A stretch of 64,000 bases of DNA from Longimicrobiales bacterium (GTDB lineage: Bacteria > Gemmatimonadota > Gemmatimonadetes > Longimicrobiales > Gaopeijiaceae). Below, in pieces: positions 3,383-55,793 of this stretch. A model generated the notes under the pieces. That model saw nothing but the letters and a program-made list of their open reading frames with translations, was not told where the DNA came from and ran no database searches. Every line of letters begins with the position of its first letter. Position 1 is the stretch's first letter. The DNA lies in contig OX638356.1 of NCBI GenBank assembly GCA_951813395.1, forward strand, positions 186,001 to 250,000, written 5' to 3'. A program made the position numbers and the translations under genes.

Positions 3383-6300
3383 TCACGACACCACCCTCAT
3401 CCCCGCTTCATCCGGCACGATTTCCTCCAGCTCCAAGCGCCTCAACTCGGCATTCACCTCCTCCAACTCCCCCTCCCACACGCTTTCCAACCGCCCCATC
3501 AACCCCCCCAACCTCTCCACCATGATCTCGAACACCGCGTACATCCCACTCCCCGGCCGCCCATCCCCCCGCTCCGACATCGACAGCAGGTTGGCCAACC
3601 GATTATTCACCTTGATCGGGAAATTCAGCGGGTCCTGGTTCGACCGGTTCCGCACCTGGTAGATCTCCCCCTCCACCGCCGACGCCGCCTCCCGCAACCG
3701 CTCCGCCGCAGCCATCAGCGTTTCATCATCGTCCACCCCCTCCAACCGCTCCTCCAGCTCCGCCTTCACCCCCCGGATCGCGATCACCGCCCGGTTGGCC
3801 TCGTCCACCTTGTCCCGGATCCGCACCCCGAACTCGTACTGCGCGACCAGGTCCTCGACCGTCACGTCGGTGATCCACGGGTGCGGCGCCACCTCCACAT
3901 GGGCGCTCTCCACCACGCCGCCCACCGTCAGGCGCGCCGTGTACGTCCCCGGCGGCACCGCCGGCGCCATCGTGCGCACGCCCCACAGAATCATGCCGGG
4001 GAAGCTCGCCGCCGGGTCCGTGCGCAGATCCCACCGCAACCGCTGCAGCCCCGATCCCGTGGGGAGCGCCGGCCCACTCCACCGGTCCCGCTCCTCGCCC
4101 TCTACCGCAGGCTCGAAGGTGCGCACCACGTCGCCGCCCGCGTCCATGATTTCCAGCTTCGCATCGGCCGCGCTCCCGCCCTCATCCCCCACCCACCACG
4201 ACAGCACCACGCCATTCGCGGAGCGGTACGCCGTGGCCGGGGTGAACAGGACCAGGTCGCGGTCGGTCGTGCCCGCCTGGAGCTGGCGCAGCGGGGCGAT
4301 GTTGTCGAGCGACCAGAAGCCGCGGCCGTGGCTGGCCATGGCCAGTTCGTCTTGCTCGGGGATCACGTCGGTGATGGGGATGTCGGGAAGGCCGGGGTTG
4401 AGCTCTTGCCAAAAATTGCCATCGTCGAACGAGATGTAGACGCCGTGGTTGGTGCCGGCGTAGAGCAGCCCCTCGCGGGCGGGGTCCTCGCGGATCGAGT
4501 TGACGTAGGCGTCGTCGCGGATGCCGTTCGTGATCCGGGTCCACGTCCGGCCGAAGTCGTCGGTCTTCCAGATGTGCGGGCGGAAGTCGTCGAGCAGGGC
4601 GAGGCGGGCGGACACGTAGGCCCTGGCGTCGTCGAAGGACGAGGCGTCGATCAGGCTGACGCGGCCGAAGTCGGGCATGTCGGGGGGCGTCACGTCGGTC
4701 CAGTTGGCGCCGCCGTCGGTGGTGACGTGCACGAGCCCGTCGTCCGATCCGGTCCAGATGATGTCGGTGTCGCGCTTGCCCGGCCCGACCGAGAAGATGG
4801 TCGCGTAGACCTCGGGGCCGTTCATGTCGCCGGTGATGGGGCCGCCGGAGTGGCCGAGCGTCATGGGGTCGGCGCGGGTCAGGTCGGGGCTCAGCGCGTC
4901 CCAGTTGGTGCCGCCGTCGGTGGTGCGCCAGAGCCGGTTGGACGAGGCGTAAAGGATATTCGGATCGACGGGCGAGAAGATGATCGGAAAGGTCCACTGC
5001 CAGCGCTCGACCATGTCGATTGCGGGCTCGCCGGAGTAGAACCAGGGATACGGATTGACCTCGCGCGAGGTGCCCAGGCGGCGGTTGAACCTGTCGATGT
5101 AGCGGCCGTTGTTGGTGCCCGAGAAGAAGACGTCGAGGTCCTTGGGATCGGGCGCGATGTAGCCCGGCTCGCCGCCGCCGGCCCGGTAGTGGACGTCCAT
5201 CGAGCCGCGCGTGATTGCGGGGGCGCGGGCGCCGTCGGCTGCGTCGGCGGCGGTGTCGGCCAGGGCCTGCTCGAAGCGCCCCGCGTTCCAGTCCGACGGC
5301 AGGCAGAGCGTGCTGTTGTCCTGCTGCGAGCCGCAGATGTGCCACGGGATGTGCGCGGTCGTGACGCCGTGGTAGAACTGCGCGGTCGAAAACTCCTGGT
5401 CGGTCCACTCGCTGCCGGTGGTGAAGCTGACCGCGCCGCCGCCGTCGTTGGCGACCACGACGTGCGCGGGGTCGTCGGGATCGATCCAGAAGTCGTGGAA
5501 GTCGCCGTGGGTGCCGTTGTTGATGACTTCGTACGTCGCGCCGCCGTCAGTCGAGCGGAAGAACGACGTGTTCTGCACGTAGACGACGTCTTCGTCGTGA
5601 TGGTCGGCGAACACGTGCGTGTAGTAGAACGCGCGCTGCCGGATCCGCCGCTCGTCGTTGATGAGCTCCCAGGTCTCGCCCGCGTCGTCGCTCCGGAAGA
5701 GCCCGCCGTTGTCGTTCTCGAAGAGGGAGTAGACGCGGTTGGAGTTCGCGCTCGACACGGCCAGCCCAATCCGCCCGACGACGCCCTCCTGCGGCATGCC
5801 CGGGTTGCGGGTGATCTCGGTCCACGTGTCCCCGCCGTCGACGCTTTTGAACATGCCGCTGCCCGGCCCGCCGGAGGACATCGTGTACTCCTTGCGGAAC
5901 GCCTCCCACAGCGACGCGTACAGCACGTCCGGGTTGTTGCGGTCGATCACGATGTCGATCGCGCCCGTGCGCGCGTCGCGGAAGAGCACGCGCTCCCAGC
6001 TGTCCCCGCCGTCGGTGGACCGGAAGACCCCGCGTTCTTCACTGGGGACCCCGTATTTCCCGAACGACGCAACGTAGACAATGGCTGGATCGGTCGGATG
6101 AATCCGGATCTTGGAGATGCCATGCGACTCGCTGAAGCCGATGTGCTCCCAGGTTGCGCCTGCGTCGCGGCTGCGGTAGACCCCGTCGCCCGGCAGGATG
6201 TTGCCGCGGATACAGGTTTCGCCGGTGCCGATGAAGACGAGGTCGGGGTCCGTTTCGGCCACCGCCACCGCGCCGATCGAGGCGGACGAGATCTGGAAGT

Positions 6301-6667
6301 CGGTAACCGGGAACCAGTCGTCGCCGCCGTTGGTGGTTTTCCACAGCCCGCCGCCCGTAGCCCCGAAGTAGGCCTCCTGCGGGCGCCCCACGACGCCGGA
6401 GGTGGCGATCGAGCGGCCGCCCCGGTCGGGCCCGAGGTTGCGCCAGGAGTAGGCGGCGAGGAACTCGGGGTCGAGGGTGACTTGCTGGGCGGCGAGGGGG
6501 GGTGGGCCGGCGAGGGCCAAAAGGGCGGCGACGGCGCTGGCTGGCGAGGCGTGGGCGGTGGGCGCCGACGACGCGTGGCGCGTGATCAGCGTTTGATCAT
6601 CGCCGGGCGGCGCAATGGCCAGAAGGGTCGCGGCGAGGGTGATCGGCCTGACGGAAGAACGGTTCAC
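3383..6667 (-). CDS. Secreted sortilin-like Asp-box (BNR) beta-propeller protein
   Basis: A 1,094-residue exported protein of the WD40/YVTN/BNR-like, VPS10-sortilin-like class common in Gemmatimonadota. Ten Asp-box loops (S/T-x-D-G-G-x-x-W) are visible, for example TTNGGDDW, SRDAGATW, STDGGDSW, SVDGGDTW, SDDAGETW, TTDGGTNW and TDDFGRTW, spread over residues ~105-780, enough for two propellers. The last ~300 residues hold a beta-rich domain and an Arg/Glu-rich helical tail. The N-terminus has two hydrophobic stretches (ITLAATLLAIA and AVAALLALAGPPPLAAQ), so the true start may lie between them. Family members are often annotated as glycosyl hydrolases without proof. A shared promoter module lies ~40 bp upstream. 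Confidence 0.85.
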   Translation of the reverse strand: MNRSSVRPITLAATLLAIAPPGDDQTLITRHASSAPTAHASPASAVAALLALAGPPPLAAQQVTLDPEFLAAYSWRNLGPDRGGRSIATSGVVGRPQEAYFGATGGGLWKTTNGGDDWFPVTDFQISSASIGAVAVAETDPDLVFIGTGETCIRGNILPGDGVYRSRDAGATWEHIGFSESHGISKIRIHPTDPAIVYVASFGKYGVPSEERGVFRSTDGGDSWERVLFRDARTGAIDIVIDRNNPDVLYASLWEAFRKEYTMSSGGPGSGMFKSVDGGDTWTEITRNPGMPQEGVVGRIGLAVSSANSNRVYSLFENDNGGLFRSDDAGETWELINDERRIRQRAFYYTHVFADHHDEDVVYVQNTSFFRSTDGGATYEVINNGTHGDFHDFWIDPDDPAHVVVANDGGGAVSFTTGSEWTDQEFSTAQFYHGVTTAHIPWHICGSQQDNSTLCLPSDWNAGRFEQALADTAADAADGARAPAITRGSMDVHYRAGGGEPGYIAPDPKDLDVFFSGTNNGRYIDRFNRRLGTSREVNPYPWFYSGEPAIDMVERWQWTFPIIFSPVDPNILYASSNRLWRTTDGGTNWDALSPDLTRADPMTLGHSGGPITGDMNGPEVYATIFSVGPGKRDTDIIWTGSDDGLVHVTTDGGANWTDVTPPDMPDFGRVSLIDASSFDDARAYVSARLALLDDFRPHIWKTDDFGRTWTRITNGIRDDAYVNSIREDPAREGLLYAGTNHGVYISFDDGNFWQELNPGLPDIPITDVIPEQDELAMASHGRGFWSLDNIAPLRQLQAGTTDRDLVLFTPATAYRSANGVVLSWWVGDEGGSAADAKLEIMDAGGDVVRTFEPAVEGEERDRWSGPALPTGSGLQRLRWDLRTDPAASFPGMILWGVRTMAPAVPPGTYTARLTVGGVVESAHVEVAPHPWITDVTVEDLVAQYEFGVRIRDKVDEANRAVIAIRGVKAELEERLEGVDDDETLMAAAERLREAASAVEGEIYQVRNRSNQDPLNFPIKVNNRLANLLSMSERGDGRPGSGMYAVFEIMVERLGGLMGRLESVWEGELEEVNAELRRLELEEIVPDEAGMRVVS

Positions 6668-6709
6668 TGTGGCGAATCCTATGCGTGGGAACGGCGAATC
6701 GGCGGGGTC

Positions 6710-6739
6710 AAGCTATCGGGAGGGCGGAGGGGGGGACAA
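6710..6739 (-). promoter_or_regulatory. Predicted promoter of the sortilin-like gene (shared module)
   Basis: On the minus strand TTGTCC, an 18-nt pyrimidine-rich spacer, and TAGCTT, ending 42 bp before the ATG. The block is nearly the same as the one at 10,348-10,377 upstream of a beta-propeller gene, with identical spacing. Two independent copies at the same distance from starts make a promoter or regulator site likely. Confidence 0.55.
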
Positions 6740-6905
6740 GCGGGAGGGGCTCGATGATCGGATGGTGGCGGGGTGATGATACGATGATGATGGCCGTGAC
6801 CTGCCGTGTGGGTCGTGACTTCCCCATGCCTGGAATGATCCCCAATGTTTCGAGGATGTCCTTGGTTACCGATCCCGTCACGAAAACAAACACCCCTTCG
6901 TTTTC

Positions 6906-6964
6906 ATTAGCAACCTGAACCGGTCGCCCGTTAGCAAGCTTGCCTCGCCAACCCGGCCGCTAAC
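6906..6964. promoter_or_regulatory. Candidate fic operator: TTAGCAA repeats and GTTAGC/GCTAAC inverted repeat
   Basis: The 380-bp gap 6,668-7,047 holds no convincing gene. Its AT-richer right part carries ATTAGCAA (6907-6914), GTTAGCAA (6930-6937) and, inverted, GCTAAC (6959-6964), the last two forming GTTAGC-N23-GCTAAC. The same arrangement (GTTAGC-N24-GCTAAC), followed by a similar CAAA..GCC.TGAA.CTTTC.TAC block, occurs at 12,114-12,180 next to a fic remnant. The site lies 84 bp before the fic ATG. Autoregulation by the winged-helix C-terminus of Fic is inference. Confidence 0.5.
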
Positions 6965-50826: not shown

Positions 50827-52077
50827 TTATGGCGCGCACGTCCGATGAACCAAGTGCCGGTGAATGTACGGGACGCCGAGATCGTCATACGTGGCGCCCC
50901 AGACTTCGTCACGGCTCGCAAGGGCAACGGCGAGACGAGGATCCCAAGGAACTAGGGAACTGCGACCGTGTCCAATCTCTACTGTGCCTGCCAGCGTTCC
51001 ATTCGAATCGTAGACTTCCCACACATCAACGCGGTCTTCACGCATCTCTCGAAGCAACCAGATGGTTCCGTCCGTTCCAGCCACAACCTGCCTGACGGGG
51101 GGATGATATTCCGGAACCCAGAAAACTCTGCGAGCCGCACGACGCCTACGCTCACGTGTCGTCTCAGTTAGCTCCCGGCCCCGGGACGAGGGTGAGTAGT
51201 CCCCGGCCCTCCATCCCGCATACTCGTCCGCCAGGCGGCGTTCCATCACACGAGTGACTTCGCGCGGTTCGTACTCGACGGACCGATGCAGAAGCGTGTC
51301 TCCACGGATCGATATCACAAGAAGGTCGAAGGTCGGTGGCGTTGCGTCTTCATGCACTTGCCCGATCCGTACGACTGCAGAGCCGTCGGGCTTGAGCGCG
51401 GTGAGGTATTCGCGGAGTCCGATAGGAGGGAGGTCTCTGAGGGGGTGTTGGCCGGGAGACAACCCGCCGTCCCTTTCATGCTCAACGGCGTTGCCCGGCC
51501 ATTCTATCATGGCGATTGTGTCCAGGACTTCGCCGGACCGTGAGAGGCGGCGCAACGCGAGTCCAGGGGTCGCGCCTCGGGATGACCAAGCCCTCCCATT
51601 GGTGGTGCGACGTCTGCCAATGAGAGTACCATCGGCGAGCATGCGGCCCGGGCCCAGGCGCGAGCCTTCCTCGGGCACGCCCAGAGAGAACTGAATGACT
51701 TGGTCTGGTACGCGCTCGTCAGTGGTGAACAACTGGATCCGGTCGAGGTCGGCTACCCAGAGGGTGTCTCCGATCCAGCCCACGCTCCTGGCCAGGAGCT
51801 CGAAGTCACCCGGCCCGCTGCCCGCGCGACCGATCCGACGAAGCACCCGGCCATCAAGAGAGAAGACCGTGACCGCAGGCACCATGGCCTGAGCGACATA
51901 GAGGGCGCTGTCGGGCCCGATCGCAAGATCCATGACGCTGGAAACGAGATCCGTGCTTTCCAGGGATCCGATCCGCAGGACCTCTTCCAACTGCCAAGGC
52001 GTCGGACACGCGGTCTGCCCGCGCAATGCACCTGGCGCGCAAAGGAATAAAACAAACAGAGAGGTCAGTATGCGCAC
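50827..52077 (-). CDS. Secreted 6-bladed beta-propeller protein
   Basis: A 416-residue exported protein starting at a GTG at 52077, with AGGAGG six bases upstream. The signal peptide MRILTSLFVLFLCAPGALRG is clear. Blades include LAIGPDSALYVAQAMVPAVT, RRIGRAGSGPGDFELLARSV and VAGTDGTIWLLREM. It is more divergent from the three propellers at 9-13 kb than they are from each other. The Shine-Dalgarno overlaps an IS110 remnant frame, so the upstream region has been rearranged. Confidence 0.82.
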   Translation of the reverse strand: MRILTSLFVLFLCAPGALRGQTACPTPWQLEEVLRIGSLESTDLVSSVMDLAIGPDSALYVAQAMVPAVTVFSLDGRVLRRIGRAGSGPGDFELLARSVGWIGDTLWVADLDRIQLFTTDERVPDQVIQFSLGVPEEGSRLGPGRMLADGTLIGRRRTTNGRAWSSRGATPGLALRRLSRSGEVLDTIAMIEWPGNAVEHERDGGLSPGQHPLRDLPPIGLREYLTALKPDGSAVVRIGQVHEDATPPTFDLLVISIRGDTLLHRSVEYEPREVTRVMERRLADEYAGWRAGDYSPSSRGRELTETTRERRRRAARRVFWVPEYHPPVRQVVAGTDGTIWLLREMREDRVDVWEVYDSNGTLAGTVEIGHGRSSLVPWDPRLAVALASRDEVWGATYDDLGVPYIHRHLVHRTCAP

Positions 52078-52273: not shown

Positions 52274-52310
52274 TTGTCTGAGCCGTCATGATAATGTATT
52301 GTCGTTTGTA
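52274..52310 (+). promoter_or_regulatory. Promoter with Fur/Zur-like operator (site 2)
   Basis: TTGTCT, 17 bp, TATTGT forms a promoter. TGATAATGTAT at 52289-52299 begins a 22-bp stretch that matches the 55,112-55,133 site (read on its minus strand) at 16 of 22 positions, including 11 in a row. The -10 lies inside it, so binding would block transcription of the PD40 lipoprotein gene 115 bp downstream. Confidence 0.55.
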
Positions 52311-52424
52311 ATGCGACCTGACCGCGGGCGATCGAGCCTCTCGATTCCCGGGATCAGGGAGGAGATGGCGGAGAGGGCGAGAACGGACCACTGACGTGCT
52401 CTCGCATAGCCGGAAGGAGATCAG

Positions 52425-53642
52425 ATGAGCTTCACCCTCGGTGGGCCGCGCTTGCGGCCAATCTGTGCTTGCCGCGGCCTCGTAGCAGTGCCGCTCCTGA
52501 TGGCGGCGGCGTGCGGAAGCAACGTCGAAGAGGTCTCGGACGTCGTGCTCGCACGACACGTCCACACAGACTTCTATGACGCCTACCCGGGCATCCCGTC
52601 GCCTGCCGGCGATCAAGTCGTATTCGCCGATTATGCCGCGGACAGCAGATCGCTCGCGGTCTACGACGTAGCGACCGGGGTCGGCCGCGTGGTGACGAGG
52701 ACGCCAGCGGGACGGTCGCGGGTGACCTGGTCGCCCGACGGTTCGCGCGTCGTGTACGTCGACCGCTGGCCCGAAAGTCACGGGGTCTGGACCTTGGACC
52801 CGACCACCGGCCAGGAGTCGCGCATCGTGGATCCCGGCGACGCACGCATCGACTATCCGCGATTGCTGCCCGACGGGACCGTGACCGCGCTTCGACACGC
52901 GGGCGCCGATACCGCGTGGGTCGCGTATGCACCGGGGCTCGACGAGGCGACCGTGCTGGTCGACGACGCCGGGGGATGGACGGCACCTGTGCGATCGCCC
53001 GACGGGCGCGCGGTCGCGTACCTTCGCGCCGCGGGCGGACGCGCGGCCCTGGCCATGACGGAGATCGCGACCGGCGAGCCGGATTGGAGTCCGGACGGGC
53101 GGTCGCTCGCCTTCAGCAGTCACGGCCCGCCGCTCGAGGGGAACCCGGGGTCCGTCTACTCGATCGCCGTCGATCCCGCTACAGGCCGCGCGGCCTCCGA
53201 CCCTGTCCGGGTCCCGCTCGACGGGTTCCAGGGCTCTGCCATGGGAGCTCGCTTCTCGCCGGACGGCGCGCGGCTGGCATTCTACGGACGCTCGCGCGAG
53301 GACGGACGCGTCACCGTTTACACAGTGCCGACGGCGGGTGGAACCCCCACCGCTGTTGTCTCTCTTGCCAATGGCGAACCCTACAGCGCGCCCGAGTGGA
53401 GCGCCGACGGGGCGTCGCTCTTCTACTCGCGCAACGACGGCTTCGGGCCCTTCCAGGTGTGGCGGGTGGACATCCTCACCGGCGCGACGGAACAGGTTAC
53501 GACCGGCGTGTTCGGCGCACTCCAGCCGAGCTTGAGCCCCGACGGACGCACGCTCGCGGTTACGATACGCGAGGCTGCCATCGAGGTCGTCGCGCTCGCC
53601 GCCGGGAGCACAGGCGCCGAAGATGGGTCCAGCGGTTGGTGA
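52425..53642 (+). CDS. PD40/TolB-like beta-propeller lipoprotein
   Basis: A 405-residue lipoprotein (lipobox MAAAC, Cys30) with GGAAGGAG seven bases before the ATG. Five or six PD40 repeats are seen: VTWSPDGSRVVYV, PVRSPDGRAVAYL, PDWSPDGRSLAFSS, ARFSPDGARLAFYG, PEWSADGASLFYS and PSLSPDGRTLAVT. A short HVH (45-47) follows the anchor in ARHVHTDFYDAYPG. The Fur/Zur-like promoter suggests a metal-related role; a comparison with the propeller zinc chaperone AztD is speculative. Convergent with the Fur-family gene. Confidence 0.85.
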   Translation: MSFTLGGPRLRPICACRGLVAVPLLMAAACGSNVEEVSDVVLARHVHTDFYDAYPGIPSPAGDQVVFADYAADSRSLAVYDVATGVGRVVTRTPAGRSRVTWSPDGSRVVYVDRWPESHGVWTLDPTTGQESRIVDPGDARIDYPRLLPDGTVTALRHAGADTAWVAYAPGLDEATVLVDDAGGWTAPVRSPDGRAVAYLRAAGGRAALAMTEIATGEPDWSPDGRSLAFSSHGPPLEGNPGSVYSIAVDPATGRAASDPVRVPLDGFQGSAMGARFSPDGARLAFYGRSREDGRVTVYTVPTAGGTPTAVVSLANGEPYSAPEWSADGASLFYSRNDGFGPFQVWRVDILTGATEQVTTGVFGALQPSLSPDGRTLAVTIREAAIEVVALAAGSTGAEDGSSGW

Positions 53643-53695: not shown

Positions 53696-54070
53696 TCAGG
53701 TGCAGGCCGGGCAACGCCCGAAGAGGATCACTTCGTGGTCATCGACCTCGAAGCCATCCGGAGCCAGATCCTCCACTGCTTCGGGGCAACGGTGGATATC
53801 GAACGCCTTTTCGCAGGCGCGGCACACGAAATGGTGATGGTGAGGCCGAGCCGCCAGTTCGTAACGCATGCCACTCCCAGGGAGTTCCACTTCAGTGAGC
53901 CAACCCTTCTCAGCCAGCATCTTGACGTTTCGGTACACCGTGGCCAGCCCGAGCGTGGGCGCGAGCGCCTGAGCGCGTTCGAGAACGTCGTCTGGTGTCA
54001 GCGGGCCCGCAACGTCGAGGAAGACGGCACGGATGGCCCGTCGCTGCCGGGTGTCTCGTTGGGAGTGCAT
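53696..54070 (-). CDS. Fur-family metalloregulator (Zur-like by context)
   Basis: A 124-residue Fur-family repressor. The winged helix has LTPDDVLERAQALAPTLGLA and TVYRNVKML. The metal-sensing region has HHHHF (His77-80), and the structural zinc site is Cys83-x2-Cys86 and Cys120-x2-Cys123. Fur, Zur and PerR cannot be told apart by sequence alone; neighbours with DUF2796, DUF3299 and MerC point to zinc. It lies 81 bp after merC on the same strand. Confidence 0.92.
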   Translation of the reverse strand: MHSQRDTRQRRAIRAVFLDVAGPLTPDDVLERAQALAPTLGLATVYRNVKMLAEKGWLTEVELPGSGMRYELAARPHHHHFVCRACEKAFDIHRCPEAVEDLAPDGFEVDDHEVILFGRCPACT

Positions 54071-54151: not shown

Positions 54152-54556
54152 TCAACAGGCCTTGGCACGACAGAGCCGGGCGCTCCACAGCAAGCCTCCG
54201 GCAATCAGAAGGCTCCCCACGGGAGACGTGACGGTTTCCGGAGCAGGCTCGAACCAACCGGCCAGAGAGGCAGCCCAGATGGCGGCCCCTGCGAGAACAA
54301 GCCCGGCAATCGCCCGTCGACGCCGACCCGGCCCGATCGCCAGCATCACGACAGCCAGGAACACCGTCCCACCCCACATCCACCATTCCGCGCCTTCGGC
54401 CAGAACCATGAACGGGGCGACCGTGGCCAGGAGGGGAGTAATGAGACAATGCACGGAACAGGCCGCTGCGACACCGGCCACCCATCCAGAGGCCACTCCA
54501 TCACCCCCGCGCGCGATGGGTACGCCCGGGATGGCCGCAGGGCCTCGGCTCGTCAC
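54152..54556 (-). CDS. MerC-family membrane protein
   Basis: A 134-residue protein with four hydrophobic segments. CSVHCLITPLLATVAPFMVL carries the Cys pair typical of MerC, and the second half reads FLAVVMLAIGPGRRRRAIAG. It starts at a GTG that overlaps the DUF3299 stop as GTGA. MerC was described as a mercuric-ion importer, but many MerC-domain proteins sit in other metal loci; here zinc is more likely. Confidence 0.85.
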   Translation of the reverse strand: MTSRGPAAIPGVPIARGGDGVASGWVAGVAAACSVHCLITPLLATVAPFMVLAEGAEWWMWGGTVFLAVVMLAIGPGRRRRAIAGLVLAGAAIWAASLAGWFEPAPETVTSPVGSLLIAGGLLWSARLCRAKAC

Positions 54557-55077
54557 CACTCGTAGGGCGTGATCGAGTTGCCAGCCATCTTGAAGGACAC
54601 CGATCCGTACTGGTTCGTCGTCTCGTCCACGGTCTGGGTGCCGTGAATCCATACGGGTTCCCAGAAGGAGACCGGCACGCGTTGACCCTTCTCCATCTGG
54701 ACGTAGACCAATTGGTTGGGTGGCGGCGGCGGGGTGTGCACGCAGGCCCCGACGTACGGCACCAGGAGGAACTCCGAGACCTCGCCGGCCCAGTCCTCCA
54801 GGGGGACCATGTATCCGGGCACCTTCACCTCTCGTCCCACGAGCGACTCGAGTTCCTCGGACATCTCGCCGGTGCGGTAATCCAGGGAGGCCAGCAGCTG
54901 CCAACCCACCTCGGCGGAGTCCCGCGGGACACTGGCGGCGCGGATCCTCGCTCCGTCGCTCGGATCCGCCAGGACGGAGCGGGGCCCCGATGTGAGCGCA
55001 AGCCAGCCGCCGATGATGACCAGGGCGAACTGGAGGGGTGTCCAGCGAATCGGGAATCGGCGGGGCGGCTTCGGCAT
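54553..55077 (-). CDS. DUF3299 exported protein
   Basis: A 174-residue protein from the ATG at 55077. A signal anchor (FALVIIGGWLALTSG) is followed by the DUF3299 core: LVGREVKVPGYMVPLED, FLLVPYVGACVHTPPPPPNQ and PVWIHGTQTV. The family is often next to DUF2796 and metal-ABC transporter genes. It is first in a DUF3299-merC-fur operon divergent from the DUF2796 gene, with the operator at 55,112 between them. Confidence 0.88.
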   Translation of the reverse strand: MPKPPRRFPIRWTPLQFALVIIGGWLALTSGPRSVLADPSDGARIRAASVPRDSAEVGWQLLASLDYRTGEMSEELESLVGREVKVPGYMVPLEDWAGEVSEFLLVPYVGACVHTPPPPPNQLVYVQMEKGQRVPVSFWEPVWIHGTQTVDETTNQYGSVSFKMAGNSITPYEW

Positions 55078-55111
55078 GAACGGGACCCTCGTCCTTCGGG
55101 AAACCAACAGA

Positions 55112-55133
55112 TGATAACGCACATACATTATCA
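55112..55133. promoter_or_regulatory. Fur/Zur-like operator (site 1) TGATAA-N10-TTATCA
   Basis: Inverted arms TGATAA and TTATCA with 10 bp between, in the 98-bp gap between DUF3299 and DUF2796. A TATAAT (minus strand, 55133-55138) overlaps its edge. The AT-rich site stands out in GC-rich DNA and matches the pattern of Fur-family boxes. Confidence 0.6.
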
Positions 55134-55175
55134 TTATACACCTGTACGCACGCAACTCCCACCGGTTCCCTTACG

Positions 55176-55793
55176 ATGACCTACCCCACACTCGACCGAC
55201 CCCAGGTCCGCTCCCGTTTCGTCGGGTGCACGATCCCGTGTCTCCTGCTGTTCCTCGCATGCGGCGATTCGCCCTCCCCGCGTCCTCCCCTTGTCGAGGG
55301 CGAACGCCTGGGGACGGCCGGGGCCCACGAACACGGCATCGCTCGACTGGGCCTGGCCGTGGACGGCGCCCGTGTCACGGTCGACCTGCAACTCCCCGCA
55401 GAATCCGTGTTCGGCTTCGAGCACGCCCCCCGCTCGGCGCAGGAGCGGGCCACCGCAGCAGAGGCTCTCGACAGACTCCGAAGCGGTGGCGCGCGTCTCC
55501 TCGCGTTTCCGGAGGGCACGAGCTGTGCGCTGGATTCGGCGGAGGTGCAGGCGCCCGAAGATGTAGAAGACGACCATGCCGGCGAGGACCAGCACACACA
55601 CGAGGACGAGGGCATCCAACACGAAGAAGTACACCTCCTCGCCTCCCTCACCTGTACCCGTGAGCCCATCGGACCGGCGAGCCTTCGGTTCGCGGACCTC
55701 CTGCCCGCCGTGGTGCAGGTGGACCTGACGGTGTTCACCGCGACAGGTGAGGCGGCCGGCCGCGTCGCGCCCGATGCCTCGTTCCGGTTCTGA
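55176..55793 (+). CDS. DUF2796 (ZrgA-like) periplasmic zinc-binding lipoprotein
   Basis: A 205-residue protein. The lipobox is LLLFLAC (Cys29). The DUF2796 pattern shows AHEHGIARLGLAVDG (His51, His53), LQLPAESVFGFEHAPRSAQE (His83) and a C-terminal LRFADLLPAVVQVDLTVFT. A central loop rich in Asp, Glu and His (His134, 140, 142, 149, 153) should bind zinc. ZrgA homologues are Zur-regulated zinc-uptake proteins in Vibrio, usually with an ABC transporter; none is present here. Confidence 0.88.
   Translation: MTYPTLDRPQVRSRFVGCTIPCLLLFLACGDSPSPRPPLVEGERLGTAGAHEHGIARLGLAVDGARVTVDLQLPAESVFGFEHAPRSAQERATAAEALDRLRSGGARLLAFPEGTSCALDSAEVQAPEDVEDDHAGEDQHTHEDEGIQHEEVHLLASLTCTREPIGPASLRFADLLPAVVQVDLTVFTATGEAAGRVAPDASFRF

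Follow-up and report, generated by a model that had tools for sequence, protein, structure and literature searches.

Extracytoplasmic propellers and zinc-uptake loci have been described in several settings that resemble the locus studied here. AztD, as presented in the accessible passages of PMC6689063, is an eight-bladed extracytoplasmic propeller with His/Asp zinc sites in its pore and at an extension, carries a conserved disulfide Cys pair, and is encoded alongside AztC, the cluster A-I protein that receives its zinc. TolB (TIGR02800; 1crz, 2hqs) ends in a PD40 propeller, a ZrgA/Zur zinc uptake locus is treated in the accessible part of PMC9820375, and the available passages of PMC9531527 name PD40 as one of the domain classes that are enriched in the microbiomes of Ircinia sponges. 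In the window, by which we mean the whole 64,000-nt stretch of DNA analysed here, taken from a genome that is a single 4.09-Mb contig (97.9% complete), a gene for a PD40 lipoprotein stands beside a zinc-uptake locus. Our best reading, to which we give a probability of about 0.5, is that this gene encodes a horizontally spreading, lipid-anchored double-propeller scaffold which is zinc-regulated in a few lineages and whose window copy is four blades short. Among the literature searched, in which subscription papers mostly lie outside coverage, no title or abstract start describes a PD40 double-propeller lipoprotein.

The PD40 gene and its product

The sequence-only reading had taken the gene for a PD40 lipoprotein with an HVH motif just past the lipid anchor and a Fur/Zur-like site in front, and all three features were recovered (Table 1). 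According to the list of open reading frames and Pfam, the product has 405 aa, an ATG start, a signal peptide and PD40 repeats, the match to PF07676 reaching E 1.2e-20 and 73.4 bits and passing the gathering cut-off of 20.9; a GGAG 5 nt upstream of the ATG makes a good, intact ribosome site, and the Fur/Zur-like site lies 112 nt upstream of the same codon. Lipidation is predicted at Cys30, which all 35 sequences of alignment A1 share and which follows LMAAA, a plausible though loose lipobox as judged by eye. The open reading frame at 50830-52077 on the minus strand, divergent from the PD40 gene, gave a weak match, below cut-off, to the six-bladed propeller family DUF5128.

Table 1. Features of the PD40 gene and of the adjoining zinc locus (positions within the window)
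Feature	Position	Strand	Basis
Putative Fur/Zur-family operator-like site, same type as the zrgA operator	52284..52312	-	zrgA-site profile
PD40 tandem-propeller lipoprotein, internally deleted	52425..53642	+	Pfam PD40, orthologues, deletion map, models
Predicted lipobox Cys30	52512..52514	+	sequence
H45-V46-H47 motif	52557..52565	+	conservation in orthologues
Junction of the 618-nt deletion	53070..53078	+	inside 9-nt repeat, alignment with L039 and L041
Fur-family regulator, convergent with the PD40 gene	53696..54070	-	Pfam FUR 3.8e-22
MerC-like membrane protein, start provisional	54152..54565	-	Pfam MerC 1e-8
DUF3299 protein, start provisional	54553..55155	-	Pfam 1.4e-33
Putative zrgA/DUF3299 operator	55110..55138	+	profile score 27.0, best in window
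ZrgA-family zinc uptake protein (DUF2796)	55176..55793	+	Pfam ZrgA 3.2e-33

An in-frame deletion and the number of blades

The closest relative (L039) has 611 aa and is 97% identical to the window protein over the shared residues. Alignment of the window gene with L039 and L041 reveals an exact in-frame deletion of 618 nt (206 codons), through which residues 216-421 of L039 are gone; the repeat ACSGGMGAG stands at the deletion ends, with 7 of its 9 nt identical between both ends in L039. Apart from the deletion, the reading frame contains no further stop or frameshift. Intact full-length relatives (33 in set A2) measure about 584-616 aa, lengths that depend on our choice of starts. L039 has twelve repeat starts, at 53, 97, 142, 185, 231, 277, 321, 375, 422, 478, 526 and 571, where the blade number is that of repeat starts counted in the sequence rather than in coordinates, four extra matches to a loose pattern being excluded. 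The starts at 231, 277, 321 and 375 are lost with the deleted segment, and eight blade starts remain in the window copy.

The model of L039 has a mean pLDDT of 80.7. Its C-terminal half superposes on TolB with Z 30.0 and rmsd 2.1 over 252 residues at 20% identity, whereas the whole model compared with two-propeller LRP6 chains gives Z up to 22.8 yet an rmsd of about 18, for which reason the two propellers would stand at another mutual angle than in LRP6. TolB is also the best NCBIfam match of both proteins, with 94.7 bits for the window protein and 124.3 for L039, below the cut-off of 343.15. This top match and the fold of the C-terminal half would suit a TolB paralogue acting with Pal and the Tol system, but the bits fall far under the cut-off, the place of the TolB N-terminal domain is taken by a second propeller with a lipid anchor, and the gene is patchy, with 28 carriers among 295 genomes of the class, where a core envelope system would be expected throughout; we consider such a paralogue highly improbable.

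For the window protein the model is poor (mean pLDDT 67.8, with values below 50 at residues 45-53, which hold the HVH motif, at 185-192, at 194-217 around the junction, and elsewhere), so that the shortened copy may not fold. Over residues 39-393 it is best matched by propellers, among them ODA16 (Z 27.1, rmsd 3.2 over 311), which we take to be eight-bladed; the designed eight-bladed Tako8 follows with Z 21.4 and seven-bladed G-protein beta chains with Z of about 20. These comparisons make an eight-bladed ring possible for the window copy, and we suggest with low confidence that the shortened protein, if folded, could be one such ring.

Other PD40 genes have suffered losses of their own. L040 (4977-6509) shows a second, separate in-frame internal loss of 306 nt, and such blade-length losses, of four blades in the window and of about two in L040, amount to experiments of nature on how a propeller changes its blade number. 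Broken copies were met in L049 (a one-base insertion), L065 (a 298-nt gap), L075 (a two-base gap) and L060, of which the N-terminal part is missing; from these four, loss of the gene appears to be frequent.

The window copy might itself be a decaying remnant whose protein was destroyed by the deletion, in which case only the intact orthologues elsewhere would matter. The 206 missing residues, the low confidence of the model and the broken state of L049, L060, L065 and L075 point that way. Set against this, the deletion keeps the frame exactly and takes out complete blades, and the reading frame is otherwise open and its ribosome site intact. In the shared codons, the changes on the window branch after it parted from L039 number 9 synonymous and 4 non-synonymous, too few to decide. 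We hold decay to be a tentative and rather unlikely account.

The zinc locus and its operators

The PD40 gene lies tail-to-tail with the gene of the Fur-family regulator, which is followed by the MerC-like and DUF3299 genes on the minus strand and by the divergent ZrgA gene. A zinc-locus setting of the gene, in line with the sequence-only reading, is thereby supported, and a site of the zrgA type stands before the PD40 gene. The PDB relatives of the Fur-family protein include Fur, PerR and Zur, so no one subtype is singled out. The segment 53685-55832, with the Fur, MerC, DUF3299 and ZrgA genes, shares 92-95% identity with L136 and L131; in a genome whose RpoB is 97% identical (G314, the same as G291 by coordinates), ZrgA and Fur are only about 68% identical. 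L136 represents an empty zinc site in which the Fur gene is directly followed by QueE, with no PD40 gene between, and 19 of the 20 other zrgA regions, some of them ended by contig ends, contain no PD40 match.

The operator profile was made from 18 zrgA sites of other genomes; neither the window nor L131, which belongs to the genome of a near relative, contributed to it. Among the 21 zrgA upstream regions compared (the window and 20 further), an anchored site was obtained in 20 and most were well matched, though the sites were chosen by a short anchor and some training loci (e.g., L118, L122, L128 and L129) match in the right half only. With this profile, the site upstream of the PD40 gene scores 16.7, the second-best value in the 64 kb after the zrgA site itself, and the next unrelated match scores 6.2. 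When the whole window was shuffled 100 times with its dinucleotides preserved, 16.7 was never reached (shuffle maximum 15.2, 95% level 13.4); these shuffles replaced an earlier null from sampled loci, the upper tail of which was distorted by true sites. Because the upstream site is the second-best match to the zrgA profile, zinc-responsive control is likely in the window lineage, and the putative operator suggests that a shortage of zinc probably turns on the PD40 gene. Two consensus patterns were set aside: a spaced TGATAAT inverted repeat matched only the zrgA site, at 55112, and was also present in 9 of 100 shuffles, and classical Fur/Zur boxes searched by consensus gave no clear site, the zrgA profile performing better.

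A site of the same type precedes the PD40 gene of L039 with a score of 14.9, above the 95% level of the shuffles but below their maximum, and no profile site was found directly upstream of the PD40 gene in L041 and L066. In L066 the PD40 gene lies 23 nt behind a TonB receptor gene, the product of which matches ZnuD best among the NCBIfam families (186.6 bits, under the cut-off of 950), and an operator match of 25.4 is located 349 nt upstream of the receptor start that we chose. In L044 the PD40 gene is divergent from that of a related TonB-dependent receptor with a moderate site of 11.4 between them, and ZrgA is encoded on the same contig about 9 kb from PD40 (L123). This favours zinc-responsive control in the lineages of the window, L039, L044 and L066 only. 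Besides the window, four of the 39 named loci are zinc-linked (L039, L041, L044 and L066), L041 without an operator, and zinc control is consequently not the general function of the gene.

TbpB presents a host protein to TbpA and, by analogy, the lipoprotein might be a surface co-receptor that presents a zinc-holding host protein to a ZnuD-like TonB-dependent receptor. The close spacing of the receptor and lipoprotein genes in L066, behind an operator match, and the divergent pair of L044 with a site between would agree with such a role; the L044 site, however, is under the 95% level of the whole-window shuffle maxima, no match to a ZnuD-like receptor occurs near PD40 in the window, L039 or L041, and the other copies examined stand beside unrelated genes. 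A co-receptor seems to us improbable.

Distribution and horizontal transfer

Relatives at E <= 1e-30 occur in 28 of the 295 genomes of the class, and a wide scan of one genome per species (84,980 species) yielded the 39 named loci. Identity to the window PD40 protein is 79-85% for 15 Acidobacteriota copies and 80-85% for most copies from Gemmatimonadota, and dS is 0.28 and 0.34 in two cross-phylum pairs. RpoB, matched in 38 of the 39 genomes (G310, with L054, gave none), is 53-56% identical between the Acidobacteriota genomes and the window in the best segment and less in others. In a tree of 35 of the 40 sequences (39 named plus the window; L048, L049, L060, L065 and L075 were excluded as frameshifted, partial or unmatched by the start rule), all 15 rows from Acidobacteriota group together in one starred clade, and the single Rhodothermota row (L041) falls inside the clade of the window and L039. 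The L041 gene, carried on a 3.2-Mb chromosome labelled Rhodothermales, encodes a PD40 protein 93% identical to that of the window in a genome whose RpoB is 52% identical. Its segment 4871-7903, about 92% identical to the window in DNA, spans PD40, Fur and MerC together with a piece of DUF3299, the L041 genome giving no ZrgA match; on these identities, the segment is a fragment of the zinc island that moved across phyla. L058 presents the converse case, with RpoB 97% identical to that of the window and PD40 only 81%. As the RpoB of the L049 genome is 76% identical to that of the window, its Gammaproteobacteria label is probably wrong.

Taken at the level of sequence, these comparisons demonstrate that the PD40 gene has passed between Gemmatimonadota, Acidobacteriota and Rhodothermota and has landed in many unrelated places, and the median dN/dS of 0.34 over 561 PD40 pairs establishes that it is kept by purifying selection. 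The Fur-MerC-DUF3299-ZrgA block of the window looks foreign as well. Elsewhere the neighbours of the gene are a TRAP transporter, a helicase, a member of the isocitrate dehydrogenase family, amidohydrolases, cytochrome c, a universal stress protein, a transposase-like protein, NUDIX, a DNA methylase and a met-zincin, and DNA similarity between unrelated settings ends close to the gene ends. In five Acidobacteriota loci (L042, L043, L045, L048 and L052; about 4760-6950) the gene sits between tRNA-Ala and tRNA-SeC, tRNA genes being typical hot spots of insertion. L066 and the window clade both have PD40 beside Fur; their PD40 lineages differ, yet the 3' junctions look alike. As to the vehicle of transfer, viral contigs held no PD40 relative, and plasmids gave distant matches only, in 15 records, at less than 60% identity among the 8 of 15 matches listed. 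The carriers of the gene include sponge-living bacteria, and nine PD40 loci bear labels of the jk18x type that appears in the accessible text of PMC9531527.

The question of metal handling

The sequence-only reading had proposed a new metal-handling propeller, analogous to AztD, and had suggested the conservation of His45 and His47 as a check. H45 is present in 22 of 22 and H47 in 21 of 22 orthologues found without motif bias, all from the class of the window (27 loci, L009-L035, less the frameshifted or short ones); the 39 named loci are biased on HVH, one of the six search peptides having contained it, and among them H47 is replaced by Pro in L077 and by Tyr in L048. The two residues are conserved, but they are so also where the zinc locus is absent. 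The HVH block is tied for best conserved of 549 sixteen-residue stretches; in the unbiased set, however, no variation at all is seen in 296 of the 565 columns of the mature protein, and HVH conservation was dropped as weak evidence for metal. Four further His residues are invariant in the family (H119, H326, H390 and H392), of which the last three fall in the segment deleted from the window copy. In the L039 model, HVH lies at or just beyond the end of the predicted N-terminal strand 40-46, which we infer to be the outer ring-closing strand and not part of the pore. The mature protein has no Cys besides that of the lipobox, and thus no Cys pair of the AztD type.

Cluster A-I zinc-binding proteins of the ZnuA/AztC type (PF01297) gave 0 matches in the whole genome, with the control positive in 11 of 14, so a hand-over of zinc of the AztD type would have no partner there. 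ZrgA was matched in 10 of the 39 named PD40 genomes and not in the other 29; in the class sample of 295 genomes, PD40 occurs in 28, ZrgA above cut-off in 37 and both in 11. Within the genus of the window, ZrgA is found in 9 of 14 PD40-bearing and 5 of 9 PD40-free genomes, and these ratios indicate no clear association of the two. Among the eleven genomes with both genes (ten named plus the window), PD40 is in or beside the zinc locus in the window, L039, L044 and L066, and the 5-kb flanks of PD40 in the other seven contain no Fur or ZrgA match. A PDB profile search to E 10 returned no chain named AztD among 46 sequences, the inclusion of AztD there being unconfirmed, and the VIA-align lists have no row of that name, which carries no evidential weight.

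With the partner protein absent and the distribution independent of zinc, an AztD-like chaperone was abandoned as the leading view. It would be a membrane-anchored protein that binds zinc through HVH and other His residues and passes it on, perhaps to the neighbouring ZrgA as acceptor; the zinc locus with its operator, the conserved HVH block and the four further invariant His would be in keeping with it. Most orthologues, however, have no zinc locus, three quarters of the named genomes (29 of 39) give no ZrgA match, the motif would lie on an outer strand, as predicted and inferred above, with H47 not universal, and both three of the four additional His and the Cys pair described for AztD (accessible part of PMC6689063) are missing here, as is any ZnuA/AztC-type protein in the genome. 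We regard zinc handling as improbable, though metal handling, were it the original role, could have been hidden by transfer into other settings.

Discussion

The reading that we prefer, a mobile double-propeller scaffold, would run as follows. The product of the intact gene would be a lipoprotein of the envelope in which two PD40 propellers, each of about six blades and the second TolB-like, follow one another; to judge by its fold, this lipid-anchored double propeller would most likely act as a protein-binding scaffold rather than a metal carrier. The gene has spread horizontally across Gemmatimonadota, Acidobacteriota and Rhodothermota; in a few Gemmatimonadota it lies in or beside a ZrgA/ZnuD-like zinc-uptake locus and would have been drawn into the zinc-starvation regulon. 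In the window, the putative operator of the zrgA type upstream would bring about induction by zinc shortage, and the copy has lost four whole blades through the exact in-frame deletion, perhaps leaving the eight-bladed ring that the model resembles.

If this is true, the interest of the locus resides not in a metal chaperone but in one gene that crossed phyla recently (dS about 0.3, against RpoB sequences that are nearly half different) and that was repeatedly re-wired, between tRNA genes, in operons and behind zinc operators; the PD40 lipoprotein would then be a concrete candidate envelope protein for life in sponges and corals. It is tempting to go further and to see in the surface-anchored tandem propeller a holobiont trait that symbionts of sponges and corals, from at least three phyla, share and exchange horizontally. 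On this view zinc starvation would induce it as a partner of ZnuD-like receptors in the taking of zinc from host proteins, a recruitment that would have happened repeatedly, and the window would record a natural collapse from 12 to 8 blades into a single ring; as a whole, this extension of the scaffold reading has little probability in our opinion.

Compared with known systems, the protein resembles AztD, as far as the accessible passages of PMC6689063 describe it, in being an extracytoplasmic propeller in a zinc setting, and the model of the window copy resembles eight-bladed rings; it differs from AztD in its genome, which encodes no counterpart of AztC, and in the missing Cys pair. With TolB it shares the fold of the C-terminal PD40 propeller, and it departs from TolB in being lipid-anchored and in having two propellers, and nothing in it was seen to match the N-terminal part of TolB. 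The “eukaryotic-like” PD40 repeat proteins of sponge microbiomes have the domain in common with it, though the protein itself does not figure in the available passages of PMC9531527. The ZrgA and DUF3299 genes of the window and their operator, finally, correspond to the ZrgA/Zur zinc uptake locus in the accessible part of PMC9820375, and the PD40 gene differs from them in being a guest in the zinc locus of the window.
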